A DNA stretch of 64,000 bases from positions 1 through 64,000 of the forward strand of contig JASMLR010000004.1 in NCBI GenBank assembly GCA_030748575.1, given 5' to 3'. Of the stretch, positions 449 to 25,739 are shown piece by piece. The translations under genes were made by a program, and so were the position numbers. The notes under the pieces were generated by a model. It worked only from the letters and a program-made list of their open reading frames with translations. It did not search any database and was not told the DNA's origin. Numbering within the stretch: the first letter of the stretch is position 1; each line of letters opens with the position of its first letter. This DNA is from Phycisphaerales bacterium (GTDB lineage: Bacteria; Planctomycetota; Phycisphaerae; Phycisphaerales; SM1A02).

Positions 449-736
449 GATGGGTGGTGACGTGTGTGGCTGATTCGGACCCCGGCCGACAACGTCGGGG
501 GGCCGGAAACACGTGCACCGGGTTGAGAAAGAGCGGCGGACGGATGTCCGAGGGTGGATTCTACCTCGCGTGTCGAGCCGAGGCGCGTACATACGCCCGC
601 TTCGCTGCGGACTGTGGGCGATCACGCAAAAAACTGATGTTTCTGCTCATAGATAGCGGGGTTGGCCACTACGTTGAGTGACGCGGCAGGGTGCTTTCGC
701 CCTGCTTGGTCAGGGACATCCTCAGAAAGCACAGAT
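449..736. other. Intergenic region upstream of tmRNA and the C25 protease
   Basis: Divergent spacer that should hold the ssrA promoter (minus) and the protease promoter (plus). A short palindrome, CCGAC-AAC-GTCGG, lies inside a GC-rich stretch near 486-498. I see no convincing -35/-10 pair on either strand and no credible coding sequence; the short open frames here look random. Confidence 0.5.
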
Positions 737-2995
737 ATGCGAAGACGAAACAACCGCCCGGTACAGGCGGCAGTGAAGAACACGATCATGGCGGCCGCGG
801 CTGCGGCGATGCTGAGCACGGCGGCTAATGGGGCGAGCCGCGAGTGGATCGGCTTCGACAATCAGCCTGCGGGCACGGCACCGTCCATCACGCTGCTGAC
901 TGAGCAGAGTTCAGCCACTGAATCTGTCTTTGAGGTCAAGGTGCACGGCATGTGGCTGACGGCGATGGATGTGCCGGGCCAGGATGGCCCGATGCACGCG
1001 CTGGAACTGCCTGGCACAGGCGCCATGGCCACCGATGCGCTTGGCTTGCCCGAACTCCCGGGCGTTGCGCTCAATGTGGCATGCACCGTGGGAGGTGTGC
1101 AGGGGGAGCCGCCCAATGTGGACATTCAGGTCACTCCGATGAGCCAGGTGGAGCTCTCAGGCATTCGCGTGTACCCACGTCAGGCCAACGATGCGACCGA
1201 CGAGACCGGTGGCGACGGAGATCAGACCTTCTATTACAACGAAAGTTTCTACCAAACGTCCGACGATCCCTTTCCGACGGCGGCTGCTCGTGCACTCGGT
1301 GGGTATCGAAAGGTGCGCGGCATCGGATCCATCGGGACGGTCGTGACGTGCTTACGCTGCCAGCCAGCCACTGAGAGGTTGTTGGTTGAGACGGCGTTTC
1401 TCGTGCGTGTGCAGATGACGGGGTCGCCGCTTGAGCACCTGTCCATCCGACCCAGCAGGGCTACGTTTCTTGGTGAGATGTACCACAACGCGTCCCTCCT
1501 CTGGGAGTTGCAACTCGCGACGCTCAATTTGGGTGCGGACGAGGGGGACTACCTCATCGTGACGCCCGACCAGTACCGTGATGAGTTGCTGCCGCTCATC
1601 CGACAGAAGACGGAGCGTGGCTTGCGTGTGCGGGTCATCATCACGTCCTCGCTCGGCACCGGTTTCGACGCCGCCGACGTCAAGGCCGCGATCGCTGACT
1701 GGTACGACACTTGCGATAACCACGACGAGTGCTACGTCCTGCTGATCGGCGATCTCGATGAGATGCCGATGCATGAGGATCCGCTGAATGACCTGCCTTC
1801 CGATCACTACTACGTCTGCCTGAATGACGAACTCGAGCCGGATTGTCCCATCGGCCGGTACTCCTGTGATTCCGAGACCGACCTCGCCCAGCAAATCGCC
1901 AAAACGATCGCCTATTCGGAAAATCCGATCGCTGGGTCTGAGCACTACAGCCGCGGCTTGCTCGCTGCGCACAAACAGCAGAGCAAAGAGTACGTGGAGT
2001 GCATCGAAGACATTGAGGATCAGGTGTACCTTGCGCTCCAGCCAGAATTCACGATGTACTCGGGACGTGAGACCGGATCGACCGTGGCCAATGTGGTGGA
2101 TGACATCAACAACACTCACTACGGACTCGTCATGTACCGAGGACACGGGTGGAAGATCAAGTGGGGCGACAATTGGAATACGCAAAACGATGAACTGTGG
2201 GACACCGACGTCGCGGGTCTCAGCAACGGCGCGTACACGCCGATTGTCGTCTCGGTGGCGTGTGGCAACAGTGCCATGCAACTCGAAGACGACTGCATCG
2301 GGGAAGTCTGGATGGAGCGGGATGAGCACGGGGCCGTCGCGCACATTGGGTCGACCCGGTCAAGCAAAACAGTGCCGAACCACGACTTTGCACGCATGTT
2401 TCAGTACTTCTACTGGACCGACTCCAATTTTGCGTTGGGACTGCTCATGCAGGGATCCTGGGAGTTTGCTTGGCTGAGCAATGGATGTTCCGATGATGCG
2501 GCGAAGAACATTTACATGTGCCAACTCCTCGGTGATCCAGAACTCCGTCCATGGATCCATGCGCCGATCGGCCTCAGCATCATCGACATGCCCGTGTTCC
2601 ATGAAGGGTTTCACTTGTACTCCGTCAATGTCGCTGCAGACCGGGCGCTGGATCTCGACGATGTCATTGTCGTGGCGGTGGTCAACGGTGAGATCCGGCA
2701 GATGGCTCGGTGTGACGAGAGCGGCCGTGCTGACCTCGAGTTGAACCTTGAGCAGCAGGATGAGGTTGTCCTGCGGGCCCATACCGAACTGGCGTTCGCC
2801 TTGGATACCCGACGAGAGTCGGTGGTCGCGGCGTCATGCCCAGCCGATCTGGATGGCTCTGGCGCTGTGGACATCGATGACCTGCTTGCTGTGGTCGGCG
2901 GATGGAACACGGTCGAGGGTGACATCACCGGTGACGGGACGACCGATATCGAGGACGTTCTCGCAGTACTCGACGGTTTCGGCGAATGTCCTTGA
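737..2995 (+). CDS. Secreted gingipain-like cysteine protease (peptidase C25) with C-terminal dockerin-like domain
   Basis: Predicted extracellular cysteine endopeptidase, 752 aa. The frame is open back to 662, but ATG 737 gives a standard signal peptide: three arginines, an Ala-rich core and a small-residue cleavage site near NGA-SRE. The middle carries the C25 pattern: YLIVTPDQY, then VLLIGDLDEMP, then RGHGW with the likely catalytic His (about residue 470), then VACGN with the likely nucleophile Cys (about 509). The last 55 residues, CPADLDGSGAVDIDDLL followed by a second GDGTTDIEDVL loop, form a paired EF-hand-like dockerin repeat. In this group that domain is probably a sorting or attachment module rather than a cellulosome part (inference). 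It stands alone and is followed by a hairpin. Substrate unknown. Confidence 0.85.
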   Translation: MRRRNNRPVQAAVKNTIMAAAAAAMLSTAANGASREWIGFDNQPAGTAPSITLLTEQSSATESVFEVKVHGMWLTAMDVPGQDGPMHALELPGTGAMATDALGLPELPGVALNVACTVGGVQGEPPNVDIQVTPMSQVELSGIRVYPRQANDATDETGGDGDQTFYYNESFYQTSDDPFPTAAARALGGYRKVRGIGSIGTVVTCLRCQPATERLLVETAFLVRVQMTGSPLEHLSIRPSRATFLGEMYHNASLLWELQLATLNLGADEGDYLIVTPDQYRDELLPLIRQKTERGLRVRVIITSSLGTGFDAADVKAAIADWYDTCDNHDECYVLLIGDLDEMPMHEDPLNDLPSDHYYVCLNDELEPDCPIGRYSCDSETDLAQQIAKTIAYSENPIAGSEHYSRGLLAAHKQQSKEYVECIEDIEDQVYLALQPEFTMYSGRETGSTVANVVDDINNTHYGLVMYRGHGWKIKWGDNWNTQNDELWDTDVAGLSNGAYTPIVVSVACGNSAMQLEDDCIGEVWMERDEHGAVAHIGSTRSSKTVPNHDFARMFQYFYWTDSNFALGLLMQGSWEFAWLSNGCSDDAAKNIYMCQLLGDPELRPWIHAPIGLSIIDMPVFHEGFHLYSVNVAADRALDLDDVIVVAVVNGEIRQMARCDESGRADLELNLEQQDEVVLRAHTELAFALDTRRESVVAASCPADLDGSGAVDIDDLLAVVGGWNTVEGDITGDGTTDIEDVLAVLDGFGECP

Positions 2996-18456: not shown

Positions 18457-19925
18457 GCGACCTCTTGACAGCATTGGCGGGCTTCGGTCCATTTCCCGTT
18501 CTGGTCGTCGGCGACTTCATGCTGGATGAGTTGGTTCATGGTGACGCCTCGCGACTGAGCCCGGATGCACCGGTCCCGGTGCTGACGGTCGACCGCATTG
18601 AACGAGCCGCGGGCGGGGCTTCGAATGTTGCAGCGTGTCTGGCAGGGCTGGGCGGCCTCGTGCGGTGCTGTGGTGTCATCGGTGGTGACGGCTCGGGGAG
18701 CCACCTTCGCGGAGCGTTGGAGGCAGCGGGCTGCGAGACGAGCGACCTGGTCGAGGACGCGGACCGCCCGACAACCGTCAAGCGGAACCTCGTCGGCCTT
18801 GCGCAGCATCGTCATCCTCAGAAGATGTTCAGGCTCGATATCGAGTCGTCGGCGCCGATCGCGGCGTCAACAGCGGCGGCGATCGAGGCGCGGGTCCGCG
18901 GCGCGATTGCGGAGGTGGCGGCTGTCTGTATCGAAGACTACGGAAAGGGCGTTTGCACGCCGGCGTTGTGTTCGCTCGTCATCGAGACGGCACGTGAGGC
19001 CGGCGTGCCGGTGCTGGTCGATCCCGCCAACCGAGACTGCTACGCCCGGTACGCCGGGGCGACCGTCATGACGCCTAATCGGACCGAGGCGGCGCGGGTC
19101 TGCGCGTCGCTTCCCGGAAGCCCGGACGATCCCGCAGACATGGCCCGGGCGCTTCTGGAGCGATGTGAGCTTGACGCCATCATCATCACGTTGGACCGGC
19201 ACGGCGCGTTGCTGCTGGAGCGGGGGGGGGAACCCGTCGAGGTTCCAACCAGGCAGCGGAATGTCTACGACGTCACCGGCGCCGGTGACATGGTGCTGGC
19301 TGCGGTGGCCGCTGCGAGGGCCCATGGCGTGTCCTGGCCCGATGCGGTGGTTCTGGCCAATGCCGCCGCCGGTCTGGAGGTTGAGCAGTTCGGCGCCCAT
19401 GCCATTCCGCTGGCGGTCGTGACCCAGGAAGTGCTTCGAGCCGAGGTTCCGCAGGACGGCAAGGTCCGCACCCGGAGGGATCTGGAACTGGAGTTGGCGG
19501 CCCACCGGGAGGCAGGCCACCGCATTGTGCTGACCAACGGGTGCTTTGACGTGATTCACGCCGGGCACGTGTCCTACCTGCGAGATGCCGGCAACCAGGG
19601 GGATGTGCTCGTGGTGGGCGTGAATTGCGACGAGCAGGTCGCCGCCATGAAGGGCGATGGTCGGCCCGTCTACGAACTCGCCGATCGCATGGCGATTCTC
19701 TCGGAACTGCAGTGCGTGGATTATGTGGTGCCGTTTGATGAACCCACCGCCCACGACCTCATCGAGACCCTCCGCCCGGATCTGTACGTCAAGGGCGGCG
19801 ATTACGAGCCGGAGCAGATCAACGAGTATGAGTTCGTCCGAAAGCTCGGCATTTCGTGTCGGGTGCTCGCGCATCGCCCGGGTCTGGGGAGCACCGATAT
19901 CGTGAACCGCGTCAAGCGGGGCTGA
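18453..19925 (+). CDS. hldE: Bifunctional heptose kinase/adenylyltransferase HldE
   Basis: Makes ADP-heptose for LPS core, 490 aa (E. coli HldE is 477). The N-terminal ribokinase-type domain has VVGDFMLDELVHGD, AGGASNVAACLAGLGG and the anion-hole motif VTGAGDMVLA. The C-terminal nucleotidyltransferase domain begins near residue 355 with LTNGCFDVIHAGHVSYL (HxGH) and ends VLAHRPGLGSTDIVNRVKR. Both domains are complete. It is the last gene of the envelope operon, coupled to lpxK by ATGA. A run of G (19219-19228) interrupts nothing. Its 3' end overlaps the convergent DUF2470 gene by 14 bases. Confidence 0.96.
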   Translation: MSDLLTALAGFGPFPVLVVGDFMLDELVHGDASRLSPDAPVPVLTVDRIERAAGGASNVAACLAGLGGLVRCCGVIGGDGSGSHLRGALEAAGCETSDLVEDADRPTTVKRNLVGLAQHRHPQKMFRLDIESSAPIAASTAAAIEARVRGAIAEVAAVCIEDYGKGVCTPALCSLVIETAREAGVPVLVDPANRDCYARYAGATVMTPNRTEAARVCASLPGSPDDPADMARALLERCELDAIIITLDRHGALLLERGGEPVEVPTRQRNVYDVTGAGDMVLAAVAAARAHGVSWPDAVVLANAAAGLEVEQFGAHAIPLAVVTQEVLRAEVPQDGKVRTRRDLELELAAHREAGHRIVLTNGCFDVIHAGHVSYLRDAGNQGDVLVVGVNCDEQVAAMKGDGRPVYELADRMAILSELQCVDYVVPFDEPTAHDLIETLRPDLYVKGGDYEPEQINEYEFVRKLGISCRVLAHRPGLGSTDIVNRVKRG

Positions 19926-20553
19926 TCCAGTCCAGGATCGCCCGCTCCGCGATCGCGGGATCCGTGATGGGGGCAGGAAAGTCGAGTCGTACGACGTCGA
20001 AGCGGTTTCGCACGTCCAGCCCCGTCGCGCCCACGCCGACCACGCGGGGCTTCTCGGGCGAGATGCCCAACTGACTCTGGATGGTTGTCAAGACACGCGG
20101 GGCGTACTCCCGGTTCAGAAGGCCGCACAGCCGAGGCTCCACGGCGGCCAGAGGGTTGGGCCGGACCACCGCCTCGCCGTCGAGGATGGCGCCGCGGAAG
20201 CGGGCCATGTCGATGTCGAACATGGCCCACAGCGGGTGCGGGGGCGTTCCGTGGTAGATCTTCCAGCGGTCGGAGTTGGATTCGCCCCCGCCGAGGGGCT
20301 CAAACTCCCGAAGGGTGACCGACAACTCCAACTGGGCTTCGCCCTCCTCCGGGATGGCCAGCGCGCAGTCCACCGCCTGAAGCATGTCCGAAGACACAGC
20401 CGCAGCGGGCCGCCCATCGGGCGTGAGCACGTACCGAATGGGCGTGGATGCCGCGTCGTGCCGCAGATCTCCACGGCTCCAGGCGTGCAGGGTGGCCGTC
20501 GCCTGATCCGGGTACCGGGCGAGGTCGTCGTCGGCGGGTTCCAGGTCGCTCAT
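19912..20553 (-). CDS. DUF2470-type protein with possible split-barrel domain
   Basis: 213 aa, from ATG 20553. The N-terminal part (RYVLTPDGRPAAAVSSDML, then AQLELSVTLREFEP) resembles the FMN-binding split beta-barrel of pyridoxamine-phosphate-oxidase-like proteins. The C-terminal 80 residues resemble DUF2470: LLNREYAPRVLTTIQ, then VVGVGATGLDVRNRF, then LDFPAPITDPAIAERAIL. The same pair of domains occurs in HugZ-type haem-handling proteins, but I see no haem-ligand His and do not assign a reaction. It has its own TANNNT box 7 bases before the start. It is convergent with hldE. Confidence 0.6.
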   Translation of the reverse strand: MSDLEPADDDLARYPDQATATLHAWSRGDLRHDAASTPIRYVLTPDGRPAAAVSSDMLQAVDCALAIPEEGEAQLELSVTLREFEPLGGGESNSDRWKIYHGTPPHPLWAMFDIDMARFRGAILDGEAVVRPNPLAAVEPRLCGLLNREYAPRVLTTIQSQLGISPEKPRVVGVGATGLDVRNRFDVVRLDFPAPITDPAIAERAILDWISPA

Positions 20554-20560
20554 GCCGCCA

Positions 20561-20566
20561 AGCCTA
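20561..20566 (-). promoter_or_regulatory. Putative -10 box of the DUF2470 gene (leaderless)
   Basis: TAGGCT on the minus strand, 7 bases before the ATG, with no Shine-Dalgarno sequence. Confidence 0.4.
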
Positions 20567-20855
20567 TCCAGAGACGGGCCCGGGCACCGCCTCAGGGGCC
20601 ACGGGCGGCCTGCCATCTGGATTCGGGTGCTCGCAAACCGCCGCCATGGGGGTGGGAATGGTGGTAGGATCCACGGGATGCCCGTGGCGGCCTGTCTGCC
20701 ACCGATGTGGTGGTGCGCAGGGCGGTTGCAGGTGTGACCTGTGCGTGTTTTCAAACGTGACGCCGCGTGGGTGGCGTTGTGGTGACCCGGGGGGCCGCCT
20801 GGCGATGCCGGGCGAGCGTTCGAGGCCCGGAGGGCCTGACAGGAGTGTGTTGTCG
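20567..20855 (+). promoter_or_regulatory. Promoter and long leader of the metalloprotease gene
   Basis: TAGGAT at 20665-20670 is a plausible -10. It is directly followed by a 7-bp hairpin CCACGGG-ATG-CCCGTGG (20671-20687). The roughly 180-base leader carries a second hairpin AGGCCC-GGA-GGGCCT (20823-20837), then AGGAG 10 bases before ATG 20856. The leader contrasts with the leaderless genes around it and may carry post-transcriptional control. No known riboswitch is recognised. Confidence 0.4.
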
Positions 20856-23800
20856 ATGAGATTCCAGCAGGGATTGGTGGGCGCCGGGCTGATGGTCGCG
20901 GTGGCTTCGGGCGTGATGGCCGAATACATCCTGGAGCCGGAGGCGACCAGAGAGATTCAGGATCTGCTTGCTTCGGGCGAGTGGAGCATCCGAACCAGCT
21001 GGCCGCTGGCGACCGACAACGACTATCGGGCTGCAGACCAGCCGGTTGAGTTCGTTCCCATCACCGTCAATGTCGTTCGATTCGACAGCGGGACTGGCGG
21101 CATCGACCTTGCGCTCGTGGATCAGGCCATCGCCACGACCAACGCGCAGTACAACGACCCGGATGTCGGCTACTTCGGATATCGCTTCTATCGCAAGAAC
21201 GTGCAGTTCATCGACAGCGATGAGTTCGCGTACTTTCACATGAGTTTCTATGGCGACAACGAGTTGGGCGCTCTCATTCAGGAGAACCCGATCGCCGGCA
21301 CGGTCAACGCGTACTTCGTTCCAGAGTTTCAGTCGGACCGCCCCATTGCGGGCGTCTCGACGCTTCCGTACGGCCCCGGTCCCAAGGGCATGGTGCTCTC
21401 GAACACGGGAACCGGTGCGCTTCCTCACGAGATGGGACACTATCTCGGGCTCCTGCACACATTTGAGTGGGCAGCGAACGGAGACGAGTGTGCGTCCGGT
21501 GACGGGTGTGAATTCGGGGGAGACCTGATCTGTGAGACACCAGCGGACCCGGGTACCGACTGGTGGGGGAATTTCCGGGCCGCGCCGCTGGCGTACTGCT
21601 ATCGGTGCGACACGGACTTCGTGCACCCGTACGACCCACAGGGCAACGGCGGCAAGGGGGAACTGAGCGAAGTGGATTGCCCCTGGGCCAACGTGGACTG
21701 TGATGACCGCGGCGCCGACTGCGGGACCGGTTACGACCACTGCGAAGCCGACGACGGCGAGACGTGCATTCAGTACGAGCCGATGACCAACAACATCATG
21801 TCGTACTACAGCCCTGGCGATCCCTCGACCAGTCAGTTCGTGGCCGAGCAGCTCAGTCTGATGCGCGCGACGCTTGAATTCCGCTTTGCGGACCACGTGG
21901 AGTCGGATTACGACTGCAACGGGAACGACCTTCCCGACTCCTTTGAAATCGAATCGTTGTGGTACCCGGACTCCGTGGACTGCGATGCCAATGGCCGGCC
22001 TGACGACTGCGACATCGCGGACAACCTGGCCCTCGACTGCGACTCGGACGGCCAGATTGATCACTGTGAGTTGAGCGGCGGCTACGAAACCGACTGTGAC
22101 GGCAATGGTGAACTCGACTCGTGTGACATCATCGAGGACCCCAGTACCGACTGCGACTTCAACGGCCTCTTTGACGTGTGTCAGATTCAACAGGGAGACG
22201 GCACCGACTGCGACGGCAGTGGCCTGATGGACGCGTGCGAAGTCGCGGACGATCCGTCGCTCGACTGTGACGGGAGCGGCCTCTTTGATATCTGCGAGAT
22301 CGATCAGGGCATCCTGACCGACTGTGACGGAAGCGGCGTGCCCGACCTGTGTGAACTGGCCGAGAACCCGGAGCTGGACTGCAATGGCAATGGGGTCTAT
22401 GACGCCTGTGACGTGACAGGTGGTGTTGACACCGACTGTGACGGCAATGGTCGGCTTGATGGGTGCGATCTGTTGGTGGACCCGGCTCGCGACTGTGATG
22501 GCGACGGCGTGCTCGACTCGTGCGCTATTGCTGCCGGAGACGTGGACGACTGCGACGGCAGCGGTACGCCGGACTCGTGCGAGAACACGCTTGCAAGCGT
22601 GACGGACCGCCTCGGTGATGCCGATCCGGACTGGCACGCTTATCTCGGTACGTCTGCCTCGATCTATGGCGATATGGCGGTCGTGGGAAGCCCGGGCGAC
22701 GACTCCGGCGCAGCCCAGGGCGGCGCCGTGACCGTGTTCCGGCGGCAGGGCCCCGGCATGTGGGCGGTGGAGACGGAACTGCTTGATGCCTCTTCAGCCA
22801 ACAACGACTTCCTGGGATCCGCTGTGGCCGCCGGCGACGGCGAGGTCTTCAGCGGCGCGCCTGGCGACAACAACGCCATGGGTGTCGACGCCGGTGCGGT
22901 GATCGTGCACACGGTGGATCAAGGCGTGTGGACGCAGGGCAGCACCCTGTACGGCTCAGCAACGGATGTGAACGATGAATTCGGCGCGGCGTTGTCGCTG
23001 GACGGAGATCGTCTGGCCGTTGGCGCCCCGATGGGCGAGCCGACCGAGGCGATCGGTGAGGCGGGCATGGTGTACGTCTTCGGCCGATCCGGCGAGAGTT
23101 GGGTTGAGCAGAGCGTCCTTTCCCACATCGGCTGCAAGGAAGACGACGGCTTCGGCCACTCCGTGTCGCTGGACGGTGACACAATCATCGTGGGCATGCC
23201 CGGGTATGACGCAGCGGCGCTCAATGCCGGCGGCGCGGCCATCATGGACGTGTCCGGCAGTGGCGACGTGTACACCTTGACCGATCCGGCCGCCAAGTCT
23301 CACGACGCATTCGGCACAAGCGTGTCGGTGCAGGGCGACTGGGCCGCCGTAGGCTCGCCGCTGAGCAACCCCGCCGGCCCGACGGATTCAGGTTCGGTGT
23401 CCATGTTCAAGATGGTCGGTGGGACCTGGGTGTGGCAGCAGACCCTCGTGGCGAGCGATGCGCACGCTGGAGACCGATTCGGCAGTCAGGTCGCCTTGGA
23501 CGGCCAGCGGCTCATGATCGGGTCTCCGTACGATGACGGCGTCGAGCCGATTCTGGGCAACTCCGGTCAGGTGTACACCTTCGTGCTCGAGGGCGGCGCC
23601 TGGAGCGAGTCCGGTGTGGTGCAGCCGTACCAGCGTGAGATCGGACTGCAGTTCGGTCACGCGGTCGATGCCATGGGCGGCCTTTCAATCGTGGGCGCCC
23701 CGGGCGCCGTCGGCATGTTCGACGAGGTCGGGGCCGCGTTCGTGGTGGTCCTGCTCGACTGCGATCTGAACGGCGAAGTGGATTCCTGCGAACTCAACGA

Positions 23801-24128
23801 TGGCGCCGACGACTGTGACCTCGACGGTGTGCTTGACTCGTGCGGCATCGCCATGGCCCTGGCGACTGACTGCGACGGAAACGGCAAGCCCGACTCCTGC
23901 GACATCAATGACAATCCCGGGCTCGACTCCAACGGCAACGGCGAACTCGATTCGTGCGAGGGCCTTGCGGATCTTGCCGGAGGCGATGGCGTCGTGGACT
24001 TGGCCGACCTCATGGTCATGATCAGTTTCTGGGGCACCAGCAACGGCTCGGCTGATCTGGACGGCGACGGCATCGTCGGTGTTCGTGACCTGATCATGCT
24101 GCTTGAGCAGTGGGGTACGACCGGCTGA
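20856..24128 (+). CDS. Secreted pappalysin-like (M43) metalloprotease with CD-rich repeats, beta-propeller and dockerin-like end
   Basis: Very large exported zinc protease, 1090 aa. ATG 20856 gives a signal peptide ending near GVMA-EY and has AGGAG upstream. The protease domain has the zinc motif HEMGHYLGLLH (His191, Glu192, His195, His201) and a Met-turn NNIMSYYSP (Met315), as in pappalysins. Residues about 351-578 hold some twelve Asp-rich repeats of about 20 residues, DCDGSGxxDxCE, likely calcium-binding like thrombospondin type 3 repeats. Residues 585-965 are six or seven FG-GAP-like blades (VVGSPGDDSGAAQGGAVTVF type). Three more CD repeats and a dockerin-like pair (GDGVVDLADLM, then DLDGDGIVGVRDLIMLL) close the protein. 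It stands alone with its own terminator. Substrate unknown. Confidence 0.88.
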   Translation: MRFQQGLVGAGLMVAVASGVMAEYILEPEATREIQDLLASGEWSIRTSWPLATDNDYRAADQPVEFVPITVNVVRFDSGTGGIDLALVDQAIATTNAQYNDPDVGYFGYRFYRKNVQFIDSDEFAYFHMSFYGDNELGALIQENPIAGTVNAYFVPEFQSDRPIAGVSTLPYGPGPKGMVLSNTGTGALPHEMGHYLGLLHTFEWAANGDECASGDGCEFGGDLICETPADPGTDWWGNFRAAPLAYCYRCDTDFVHPYDPQGNGGKGELSEVDCPWANVDCDDRGADCGTGYDHCEADDGETCIQYEPMTNNIMSYYSPGDPSTSQFVAEQLSLMRATLEFRFADHVESDYDCNGNDLPDSFEIESLWYPDSVDCDANGRPDDCDIADNLALDCDSDGQIDHCELSGGYETDCDGNGELDSCDIIEDPSTDCDFNGLFDVCQIQQGDGTDCDGSGLMDACEVADDPSLDCDGSGLFDICEIDQGILTDCDGSGVPDLCELAENPELDCNGNGVYDACDVTGGVDTDCDGNGRLDGCDLLVDPARDCDGDGVLDSCAIAAGDVDDCDGSGTPDSCENTLASVTDRLGDADPDWHAYLGTSASIYGDMAVVGSPGDDSGAAQGGAVTVFRRQGPGMWAVETELLDASSANNDFLGSAVAAGDGEVFSGAPGDNNAMGVDAGAVIVHTVDQGVWTQGSTLYGSATDVNDEFGAALSLDGDRLAVGAPMGEPTEAIGEAGMVYVFGRSGESWVEQSVLSHIGCKEDDGFGHSVSLDGDTIIVGMPGYDAAALNAGGAAIMDVSGSGDVYTLTDPAAKSHDAFGTSVSVQGDWAAVGSPLSNPAGPTDSGSVSMFKMVGGTWVWQQTLVASDAHAGDRFGSQVALDGQRLMIGSPYDDGVEPILGNSGQVYTFVLEGGAWSESGVVQPYQREIGLQFGHAVDAMGGLSIVGAPGAVGMFDEVGAAFVVVLLDCDLNGEVDSCELNDGADDCDLDGVLDSCGIAMALATDCDGNGKPDSCDINDNPGLDSNGNGELDSCEGLADLAGGDGVVDLADLMVMISFWGTSNGSADLDGDGIVGVRDLIMLLEQWGTTG

Positions 24129-24166
24129 GCCCAGTTTGGCCAGTCCCTGTGTGATGACTTGGAATG

Positions 24167-24203
24167 CCACGCCCCCGGCACGCACGGGGGCGTGGTTCTT
24201 TTT
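24167..24203 (+). terminator. Rho-independent terminator of the metalloprotease gene
   Basis: Perfect 11-bp stem CCACGCCCCCG/CGGGGGCGTGG, 7-base loop, followed by TTCTTTTT. It is the clearest intrinsic terminator in the window. The aroDE -10 box starts 7 bases further on. Confidence 0.95.
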
Positions 24204-24209
24204 CCGTGA

Positions 24210-24215
24210 TACCTT
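24210..24215 (+). promoter_or_regulatory. Putative -10 box of aroDE (leaderless)
   Basis: TACCTT, 6 bases before the GTG start of aroDE. The next upstream element is the terminator hairpin, so a normal -35 has little room, which suggests an extended -10 promoter. Confidence 0.45.
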
Positions 24216-24221
24216 GCCGCC

Positions 24222-25739
24222 GTGGCACGCGTCATCGCTCCTGTAGCACTGCTCGACGAAGCCGCCGTGGCCCATGGACTGGCCCTGGCGGCGCGTGCGT
24301 TTGAGCATGGTGCCGACCTGGTGGAGTGGCGGCTCGACGCCCTTCCATCAACACAGGCCTGTGACCTGTCCACCTTGTTTGCGGCCGGTCCATGCGTTGC
24401 GACGTGTCGCAGCGAAGGAGAAGGGGGATTGTTCGACGGATCTGACGAAGACGTGGCCGCGTGGCTGGACGCTGTCGCTTCGCAGACCCCGCTGCCCAGT
24501 TGGGTCGATGTCGAGTACCAGCGATGGTCCAGATCTCCCGCGGTACGCGCGTCGGCTGCCCGGGTCCGGGAAGCAGGGCCGCGGCTGCTGTGTTCCATGC
24601 ACGACTTCACCGGACGTCCGAGCGATCTGCTCCGCCGGGTTTCCGACATGAGCGGCGGCCCCTTCGACGCCGTGAAGGTCGTGTGGCGGGCGCGTTCTCT
24701 TCGAGACATTGCCGACTGCCGATCGCTGCTCAAGCACGCCACCATTCCCATGATCGCGCTGTGCATGGGCGAGGCAGGCCTGCCCACACGCGTTCTGGCC
24801 GGGGCGTGGGGCGGCATGGCGACGTTCGCGGCGGCGAGTTCGGAGGATGCGACAGCCCCCGGCCAGCCGACCCTCGATGCGCTGCTGCATCAGTACCGAT
24901 TCCGGTCGCTCGGGCCGGACACCCGGCTGTTCGGCCTGGTTGGCGACCCGCTTGGCAGGAGCCCCGGGTTTGAGCTTCACAATGCGGCATTTGCCGCCGG
25001 GGGCGTGGACGCGGTCTACCTGCCCCTTCCCGTTGCGGCGGGGTGGGAGTCGTTCAAGGCGACGATGGCGACGCTGCTGGAGGATCCACATCTCAATCTG
25101 GGTGGTGTGTCCGTCACGCTCCCACACAAGCTCGATGCGTTTCGGTTTGCGGAGGAGCAGGGGGCCGTTGTGTCCGAGGCTGCCGCGATGTGCGGCGCGG
25201 TCAACACGCTGACCGTTGGAGATCGCTTGTATGCGGACAATACGGATGTGACCGGCGTGATCGAGCCGCTGCGCGACGCCGGCGCGACCCTCTCGGGTGG
25301 CGTGGCCGGCGTGATTGGCGCTGGCGGCGTGGCTCGGGCTGCGGCTGCCGGCCTGCTCTCCGAGGGGGCTGCGGTCGAGGTCTGGAATCGCTCGCCGGAT
25401 CGAGCGGAGGGGTTGGTTGCCGCCCTGCGGGATGCGGGGCCGATCTCGGTCGGTCGGAGCGGCCGTCGGTACGACGTCGTGGTGCAGTGCACGCCGGTCG
25501 GGATGGCGCATGGTGATCATCCCGGCGCAACGCCGCTCGCGGCGCTCGGCCTGGATGCAGCCGACATACTGGACGACCACAGCGTGCTGCTCGAGACGAT
25601 CTATGACCCGGAAGCGACGCCCCTGGCTCAGGCGGGGAGGGCCTGTGGAGCGTCCGTCGTGACGGGCCGCCAGATGTGGCTGGCGCAGGCTGCGGCGCAG
25701 CAGGCTGCCTGGACCGGACGACGACCGGAAGGCTGGTAG
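24222..25739 (+). CDS. Bifunctional type I 3-dehydroquinate dehydratase / shikimate dehydrogenase
   Basis: Fused AroD-AroE, steps 3 and 4 of the shikimate pathway, 505 aa, GTG start. The type I dehydratase half shows EWRLDAL, LCSMHDF with the catalytic His and VKVVW with the Schiff-base Lys. The dehydrogenase half starts near residue 236 with LVGDPLGRSPGFELHN (substrate loop), TLPHKLDA with the catalytic Lys, NTDVTG, and the NADP site VIGAGGVARAAAAGL. It ends VTGRQMWLAQAAAQQAAW, a typical AroE tail. Fusions of this order are best known in plants and in planctomycetes and chlamydiae. It is convergent with aroC, 4 bases away, so three shikimate steps lie together. Confidence 0.93.
   Translation: MARVIAPVALLDEAAVAHGLALAARAFEHGADLVEWRLDALPSTQACDLSTLFAAGPCVATCRSEGEGGLFDGSDEDVAAWLDAVASQTPLPSWVDVEYQRWSRSPAVRASAARVREAGPRLLCSMHDFTGRPSDLLRRVSDMSGGPFDAVKVVWRARSLRDIADCRSLLKHATIPMIALCMGEAGLPTRVLAGAWGGMATFAAASSEDATAPGQPTLDALLHQYRFRSLGPDTRLFGLVGDPLGRSPGFELHNAAFAAGGVDAVYLPLPVAAGWESFKATMATLLEDPHLNLGGVSVTLPHKLDAFRFAEEQGAVVSEAAAMCGAVNTLTVGDRLYADNTDVTGVIEPLRDAGATLSGGVAGVIGAGGVARAAAAGLLSEGAAVEVWNRSPDRAEGLVAALRDAGPISVGRSGRRYDVVVQCTPVGMAHGDHPGATPLAALGLDAADILDDHSVLLETIYDPEATPLAQAGRACGASVVTGRQMWLAQAAAQQAAWTGRRPEGW

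Follow-up and report, generated by a model that had tools for sequence, protein, structure and literature searches.

Why should a secreted zinc protease carry, in a single chain, two blocks of short cysteine- and aspartate-rich repeats, an integrin-like propeller, and a dockerin-like tail? This question is raised by an open reading frame at positions 20856 to 24128 (+) of a 64,000-nucleotide stretch of a Phycisphaerales genome (GenBank assembly GCA_030748575.1, contig JASMLR010000004.1, positions 1 to 64,000; here called the window). The frame encodes a protein of 1090 amino acids, in which a signal peptide, an M43 protease, 12 Cys/Asp repeats (stalk 1), a seven-bladed FG-GAP propeller, 4 further repeats (stalk 2), and a two-loop tail follow one another. 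An original prediction, made from the letters alone, had proposed a pappalysin-type protease, calcium-type repeats, a beta-propeller, and a dockerin-like tail; its coordinates and part order were borne out, and each of the four assignments agrees with the data presented below. Protease, propeller, and tail can each be assigned to a known family, whereas the stalk repeat seems to be widespread in Planctomycetota and apparently has no name. To our knowledge, how planctomycetes build and attach large secreted surface proteins is poorly understood, and the window protein provides a compact testable case in which protease, calcium-loop stalk, integrin-like propeller, and anchor-like tail are all joined in one chain.

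Taking the whole explanation together, we consider it reasonably probable that this protein is an exported zinc protease of the pappalysin family whose build serves to display it away from its attachment point. It would be exported by its signal peptide and retained by its C-terminal tail, which would hold it to the cell envelope or to a partner outside the cell. Stalk 2 and the propeller would then lie near the attachment point, the propeller acting as a docking or substrate-binding platform, and the 12-repeat rod, stiffened by calcium and by disulfides between repeats, would hold the protease outermost, where it may clip proteins, perhaps those of particles or of neighboring cells. The original prediction had the stalk displaying the propeller. 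Judging from the part order, this is probably reversed: with the sequence protease, 12 repeats, propeller, 4 repeats, and tail, attachment through the tail would make the protease the part that the long stalk displays.

The catalytic domain belongs to the pappalysin family

The predicted signal peptide (residues 1 to 22; 20856 to 20921, +) has a basic start, a hydrophobic core, and V-M-A before E23, with the cleavage site placed by eye, and is followed by a pro-segment (residues 23 to 66; 20922 to 21053, +; limits by eye) that contains no cysteine. The catalytic domain covers approximately residues 67 to 348 (21054 to 21899, +). It matched the Pfam family Peptidase_M43 with 25.0 bits against a cutoff of 23, over profile positions 70 to 107 of 152 (38 positions). 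The window protease sequence alone found none of the pappalysins in the PDB; a profile of 14 relatives including the window protein (alignment A7) matched the PDB entries of human pappalysin-1 and -2, ulilysin, and mirolysin with E values from 2.8e-15 to 1.1e-7. The two features by which M43 members are recognized, namely, the zinc-binding motif HEXXHXXGXXH (HEMGHYLGLLH, residues 191 to 201; 21426 to 21458, +) and the Met-turn (NIMSY, residues 313 to 317, with Met315; 21792 to 21806, +), are both present. The signature HExxHxxxLxH is invariant in 14 of the 14 rows of A7, and 13 of these rows retain the Met-turn methionine. The three orthologous rows carry a Cys-rich insert before the Met-turn that is not found in the other eleven, and they are missing a Cys after the Met-turn that the other eleven have.

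Unicellular pappalysins are zymogens held by a Cys-Gly cysteine switch, as described in the available parts of PMC6949598 and PMC8259862. Since its pro-segment has no cysteine, the window protein has no such switch. Pro-segment cysteines are absent from 4 of 4 orthologs (window included), the Cys-Gly of one ortholog (L061) lying inside its signal peptide. Among the 14 non-orthologous homologs, a Cys-Gly was found in the expected stretch in 12, L064 has a Cys without Gly, and L075 is ambiguous. Without a cysteine switch, any latency of the window protein would rest on other contacts or on calcium. In mirolysin, which is itself not part of alignment A7, the specificity Asp is located after the Met-turn (available part of PMC6949598). 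A loss of such an Asp in the window protein was considered and dropped when the alignment was checked. The window genome encodes a second M43-like protein (L075:2023-3282, on contig C11 of G000) with the motif HExxHxxxxxD, in which Asp replaces the third His.

The propeller is of the integrin alpha type

The FG-GAP (integrin-alpha-type) seven-bladed beta-propeller occupies residues 580 to 966 (22593 to 23753, +). Seven FG-type repeats start at residues 597, 653, 709, 766, 819, 875, and 933, and the Pfam family FG-GAP_2 was matched with 141.8 bits (cutoff, 23). AlphaFold2 models approximately residues 580 to 966 with a predicted local distance difference test (pLDDT) score mostly above 90, and comparison with the PDB returned integrin entries with Z scores of up to 42.9 and a root mean square deviation of 2.6 Å over 356 residues at 18% identity. 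The matches listed for a fold search with the whole chain (50 each from Foldseek and VIA) were also integrin entries; those of VIA cover only approximately residues 578 to 998, and the other domains were barely probed. No blade calcium loop of the form D-x-D/N-x-D/N/S-G was found in residues 580 to 966.

The tail resembles GC-type dockerins and is abundant in the genome

The tail (residues 1037 to 1090; 23964 to 24125, +) consists of two predicted loop-helix units, the first loop being degenerate, as judged from the NCBIfam model and AlphaFold2. In isolation it matched the NCBIfam model dockerin_GC (NF041540) with 34.4 bits against a cutoff of 29 and fell just under the cutoff of Pfam Dockerin_1 (22.2 versus 22.9); when the full chain was scanned, dockerin_GC was not listed and Dockerin_1 was likewise below cutoff. 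All 14 tails of alignment A2 match dockerin_GC at an E value of ≤0.1. With a profile of these 14 tails, 102 matching stretches were retrieved from the window genome, the first 60 of which span both loops. Inspection of the 30 best-scoring loci, the window's own included, revealed that 28 end 0 to 3 residues before a stop codon; the exceptions are L093, which has a TGA inside the match, and L101, which is internal. A Cys is found within the last six residues of 23 of the 28 intact tails, and the window protein and four others have none. The window protein ends in WGTTG and its three orthologs in WHPAA, WHNG, and WRGD, so that all four are without a terminal Cys; that this Cys is a GC-type trait is our interpretation, drawn from what the family is called and from the sister tails, and not the model's own definition. 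No paper using the term "GC-type dockerin" was found in the openly licensed PubMed Central (PMC) literature.

The same type of tail is found on other peptidases. A C25 peptidase (gingipain type, 165.4 bits) at window positions 662 to 2992 (+) has the same two-loop GC-type tail at its C terminus, an M12B peptidase of the window genome (L083) carries such a tail, and a protein from another genus (L014, genome G008) combines a C1 papain-family peptidase with seven FG-GAP stretches, two Cys/Asp (D-C) repeats, and a tail. We read these parts as exchangeable cassettes.

Two alternatives to a protein anchored by its tail have to be weighed here. (i) The protein may be a freely released exoprotease, its tail serving as a folding cap or export signal and its stalk and propeller targeting the substrate, not the cell. 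This is a serious rival to the anchored reading because the window protein and all three orthologs do not have the terminal Cys that most sister tails carry; moreover, substrate-binding accessory domains are common in exoproteases. The tail nevertheless occupies the same extreme C-terminal position as dozens of sister stretches, and the NCBI curators' family name includes the words "domain-anchored," although this is a name and not a test. On balance, we regard release as rather unlikely. (ii) The tail may work as a genuine dockerin and link the protease to a scaffold that bears cohesins, giving a planctosome-like complex as proposed for freshwater Nemodlikiaceae. The available part of PMC6461901 proposes for freshwater Phycisphaerae a peptidase complex of the cohesin-dockerin type that includes thrombospondin type 3 (TSP3) repeats; the dockerin_GC match and the near match to Dockerin_1 are in keeping with this idea, as are the cohesins matched in 23 of 151 family genomes at an E value of ≤0.001 (18 over cutoff). 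However, the same search that finds cohesins elsewhere in the family found none in the window genome (E ≤ 0.1) or in 9 same-genus genomes (E ≤ 0.001), which are 83 to 97% complete and in which a divergent cohesin would escape detection. A scaffold-bound complex thus appears improbable for this genus, and we return to retention by the tail as the favored explanation.

Three further observations concern the tail and secretion in this genome. At least 60 two-loop tail stretches occur in the cohesin-negative 2.4-Mb genome, six of the 60 on one 30-kb contig (C8). There is also an exosortase EpsH homologue (G000:C44:150467-151261; 153.4 bits), and the genome may also run exosortase-type sorting; the tail was rejected as an exosortase substrate despite this gene, since no hydrophobic segment was seen on reading it. 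A search for type IX secretion with the SprA model gave no match in this genome or in the control genomes and is uninformative.

The stalks are built from a 19-residue repeat with a predicted calcium loop

Stalk 1 (residues 353 to 580; 21912 to 22595, +) consists of twelve Cys/Asp repeats with the predicted calcium loop D-C-D-x-N-G-x-x-D-x-C-E/D. Eleven of them, from residue 375 to residue 565, are exactly 19 residues apart, and the first was found by a wider pattern. Stalk 2 (residues 968 to 1036; 23757 to 23963, +), also delimited by pattern, has repeats starting at residues 968, 986, 1005, and 1024, with Ser replacing the first Cys in the last one. Shuffling the residues of stalk 1 10,000 times yielded on average 0.006 motifs and never more than 1, against the 12 observed. 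We then gathered 96 distinct 19-residue units from the loci studied, window included, using a pattern that fixed Asp at positions 1 and 9, Asp or Asn at position 3, Asn, Ser, Asp, or Gly at position 5, Gly or Asn at position 6, and Cys at positions 2 and 11 but left position 12 free. This free position is Asp or Glu in 86% of the 96 units, as in an EF-type calcium loop. A spacing of 19 residues is the commonest, accounting for 96 of the 154 spacings of up to 40 residues. That the blocks are plain flexible acidic linkers whose calcium-loop look comes from composition alone, an idea in line with the low AlphaFold2 confidence for the stalk and the missing Pfam match of the window stalk, is very improbable in view of the exact 19-residue period, the acidic residue at a position left free, the conserved length of stalk 1 in the orthologs, and the failure of composition-preserving shuffles to reproduce the motif.

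The repeat is common in the phylum. A DNA pattern for one repeat is present in 74 of 392 Planctomycetota genomes, with 46 matches in the window genome and 228 in G251, the highest count seen; a reversed control pattern gave 1 match (G523) among the matches listed. Exact runs of three repeats were found in 16 of 20 genomes chosen for their richness in the motif. An array at L121 (G471:C40:31823-33964) is very long, with triple runs and few breaks over 2.1 kb, and other proteins have Cys/Asp repeats fused to FGE-sulfatase-like domains (L027 and L040) and to RCC1 repeats (L026 and L027). The window stalk matched 0 Pfam families at an E value of ≤1, TSP_3 included, and a few of the 11 other stalk rows gave weak matches to EF-hand, dockerin, TSP3_bac, or unrelated models. 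No tandem repeats were detected at the DNA level by Tandem Repeats Finder, the repeat being conserved at the protein level. We found no description of it in the openly licensed PMC literature.

As to its origin, a TSP3 unit (DxDxDGxxDxxDNCP..NxxQ) continues directly into D-C repeats in the sister proteins L021, L077, and L079, where loop and second Cys stay in register. L040 also contains a TSP3 unit, which carries a D-C loop, and more repeats follow later in that chain. The TSP_3 scores of L021, L077, L079, and L040 are 23.8, 19.6, 19.9, and 25.9, respectively (cutoff, 25); in the six-frame genome search, the TSP_3 units of L077 and L079 reached 26.0 and 26.4. Because TSP3 units run in register into D-C repeats in these proteins, we read the repeat as a putative shortened offshoot of the TSP3 unit with an extra Cys. 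When the stalk profile was compared with the PDB, none of the 5 matches listed was a thrombospondin chain; the best, internalin-J (3.9e-5), was judged to reflect matching Cys/Asp spacing and was rejected as a homologue.

The gene was probably gained within the genus

Full-length orthologs were found in 3 of 8 other same-genus genomes (G085, G101, and G121), the proteases being 73, 61, and 62% identical to that of the window in the search of family genomes. These orthologs (L059, L060, and L061), from Phycisphaerales metagenome-assembled genomes, are 1093, 1083, and 1084 amino acids long (start codons by eye), show the same part order, and adjoin the same upstream genes. Stalk 1 aligns to the three with 0, 1, and 2 gapped positions, and its length is thus kept. 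Conservation between the window protein and the three orthologs is 0.72, 0.64, and 0.65 for the protease and 0.70, 0.61, and 0.60 for stalk 1 but 0.57, 0.37, and 0.38 for the propeller, a difference to be expected if the surface of the propeller evolves with changing partners. Repeats of the orthologs share 13.0, 11.2, and 10.9 of 19 residues with their positional counterparts, compared with 8.1 for the average other repeat of the same protein.

The gene lies between two conserved neighbors, which mark the two sides of an apparent insertion junction. Upstream is a divergent gene (19912 to 20553, −; start at 20553 by eye) without a Pfam match at an E value of ≤0.001, and downstream is a type I 3-dehydroquinase/shikimate dehydrogenase fusion (24222 to 25739, +). 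Of the 9 same-genus genomes, 4 carry the protease gene and the other 5 do not have it at this junction, where their flanking genes adjoin; both flanking genes stand beside the ortholog in G101 and G121. We also collected 80 named loci through the neighboring hldE-like gene, some of which (four) are the same contigs as in the same-genus genome set. Both flanking genes are present at 26 of these loci, 2 with the protease gene between them and 24 without; in 23 of the latter the flanking matches are 24 to 296 bp apart, and L187 has another order. Besides the window contig, the gene is carried by contigs JAQWLT010000014.1, JASMKH010000012.1, and JAAERN010000047.1. Since five same-genus genomes are without the gene and the flanks adjoin in most other relatives, the comparison of these loci suggests that it was probably gained within the genus by insertion between the two neighbors. 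In a tree of three neighboring genes, the four carrier genomes form two pairs that the tree does not firmly join (FastTree supports of 0.775 and 0.511), so that a single gain and a gain followed by losses are not distinguishable.

A protease search of 151 family genomes gave matches in 15, of which 4 are full length and belong to one genus and 11 are distant M43 relatives. The D-C motif occurs in 0 of the 14 non-orthologous M43 frames read; by pattern, a tail closes 10 of these frames, and L066 runs off its contig. Within that sample, this genus alone showed the complete set of parts.

Strength of the display model and its wider meaning

A number of results weigh against a displayed protease on a rigid stalk, or against parts of the evidence for it. 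(i) The AlphaFold2 model of the stalk, built from 31 rows, has a mean pLDDT score of 44 and shows short helices after the loops; with so low a score, it does not bear out a rigid stalk. (ii) Around the catalytic cleft, residues 202 to 325 have pLDDT scores below 50, and the M43 model is weak there. (iii) A secreted protease that is not kept latent by a cysteine switch would be hard to keep quiet. (iv) As for substrate preference, the window protein (Asp322) and L059 have an Asp in the same column as the post-Met-turn Asp of L066 and L074, and the other rows have none. (v) Without a C-terminal Cys in its tail, the protein could be released, and no cohesin was detected in the genus as a partner for the tail. 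(vi) The positional counterparts in G101 and G121 (11.2 and 10.9) are hardly or not at all closer than the best other repeat of the window protein (mean, 11.1), and the strict motif counts are 16, 14, 13, and 15 in the window protein, G085, G101, and G121, respectively, being lower in the orthologs because of degenerate units, most of them in stalk 2. (vii) Synonymous divergence (dS) is saturated or undefined in many ortholog comparisons, so we claim no ratio of nonsynonymous to synonymous divergence (dN/dS). (viii) In G085 the upstream genes are present, and the contig ends before the downstream gene.

A broader reading joins the window protein to its sisters; we offer it tentatively, as an idea that may well prove too wide. 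The Cys/Asp repeats would form an undescribed Planctomycetota family, a shortened, doubly-cysteined TSP3 offshoot found in long arrays in some genomes, that forms calcium- and disulfide-locked rods. Together with the FG-GAP propeller and a GC-type dockerin tail that works without cohesins, such rods might then serve as interchangeable cassettes for mounting proteases (M43, C25, M12B, C1) and other domains on the cell surface, and Phycisphaerales could possess a type of surface display distinct from the cellulosome/planctosome model. Several points would give the locus a wider use. As the repeat is common in the phylum and its window copy has neither a Pfam match nor a description that we could find, naming it would annotate many proteins. 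The gene, present in some genomes and absent from others at a single conserved junction, offers a natural series. Finally, a tail of this type in a genus with no detected cohesin casts doubt on taking dockerins of planctomycetes as a sign of cellulosome-like complexes.

Expression signals and genomic setting

A likely ribosome-binding site, AGGAG (20841 to 20845, +), was read from the sequence ahead of the ATG at 20856. The gene had been predicted to have a strong terminator of its own, and this is supported: between it and the next gene lies an intrinsic-terminator-like hairpin of 12 pairs (24166 to 24196, +), followed by TCTTTTTCC, and in a 61-base stretch picked around the hairpin the fold has a z score of −3.78, with 0 of 200 shuffles equally stable. 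Two orthologous loci have a hairpin of different sequence at the same place with a weaker T-run (hairpins by eye). As a group, terminator-like sites show no enrichment across the region (4 detected versus 2.4 ± 1.7 in shuffles). A long hairpin-bearing leader, which had also been predicted, was rejected, since its folding is no better than that of shuffled sequence (z scores of −1.14 and −0.87) and thus not beyond chance at the local G+C content. No sigma-70-like promoter was found in 19900 to 24700, and no defense function was matched by PADLOC. The window genome (G000) comprises 2.38 Mb in 85 contigs and is 97% complete. The host is probably marine, as the isolate names Arabian9 and ALOHA among Phycisphaerales metagenome-assembled genomes point to seawater.

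Comparison with known systems

The window protein can be compared with the cellulosome and with the proposed planctosome. The window tail scores under the cutoff of Dockerin_1, which represents the type I dockerin of the cellulosome, and a cohesin partner was not detected in the 9 same-genus genomes. It scores over the cutoff of the GC-type dockerin model (NF041540), yet the window clade is without the C-terminal Cys. With the planctosome (Andrei et al. 2019, PMC6461901, as far as its available part describes it), the window case shares the Phycisphaerae host, secreted metallopeptidases, dockerin-like modules, and TSP3-related repeats; it differs in that no cohesin was detected in the genus and in that protease, stalk, and tail are united in one chain. 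The stalk repeat resembles the TSP3 unit in its DxDxDG-type calcium loop and in the Cys at loop position 11, but it is uniformly 19 residues long, carries an additional Cys at loop position 2, and has no NCP segment. The propeller has seven FG-GAP repeats in common with those of integrin alpha chains and of bacterial FG-GAP proteins. Integrin-type propellers in bacteria were already known (PMC3192720), and both integrins and the bacterial set, in the available part of that paper, carry blade calcium loops, unlike the window propeller. The closest known counterparts of the catalytic domain are the unicellular pappalysins (MEROPS family M43: mirolysin, ulilysin, leptolysin, and cytophagalysin), with which it shares HEXXHXXGXXH, the Met-turn, and catalytic-domain cysteines; cytophagalysin likewise has a long train of C-terminal domains, according to the available part of PMC11674741. 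The window protein departs from this group in having no pro-segment Cys-Gly switch and a Cys-rich insert before the Met-turn, and in carrying a stalk, a propeller, and a dockerin-like tail where unicellular pappalysins have immunoglobulin-like domains.

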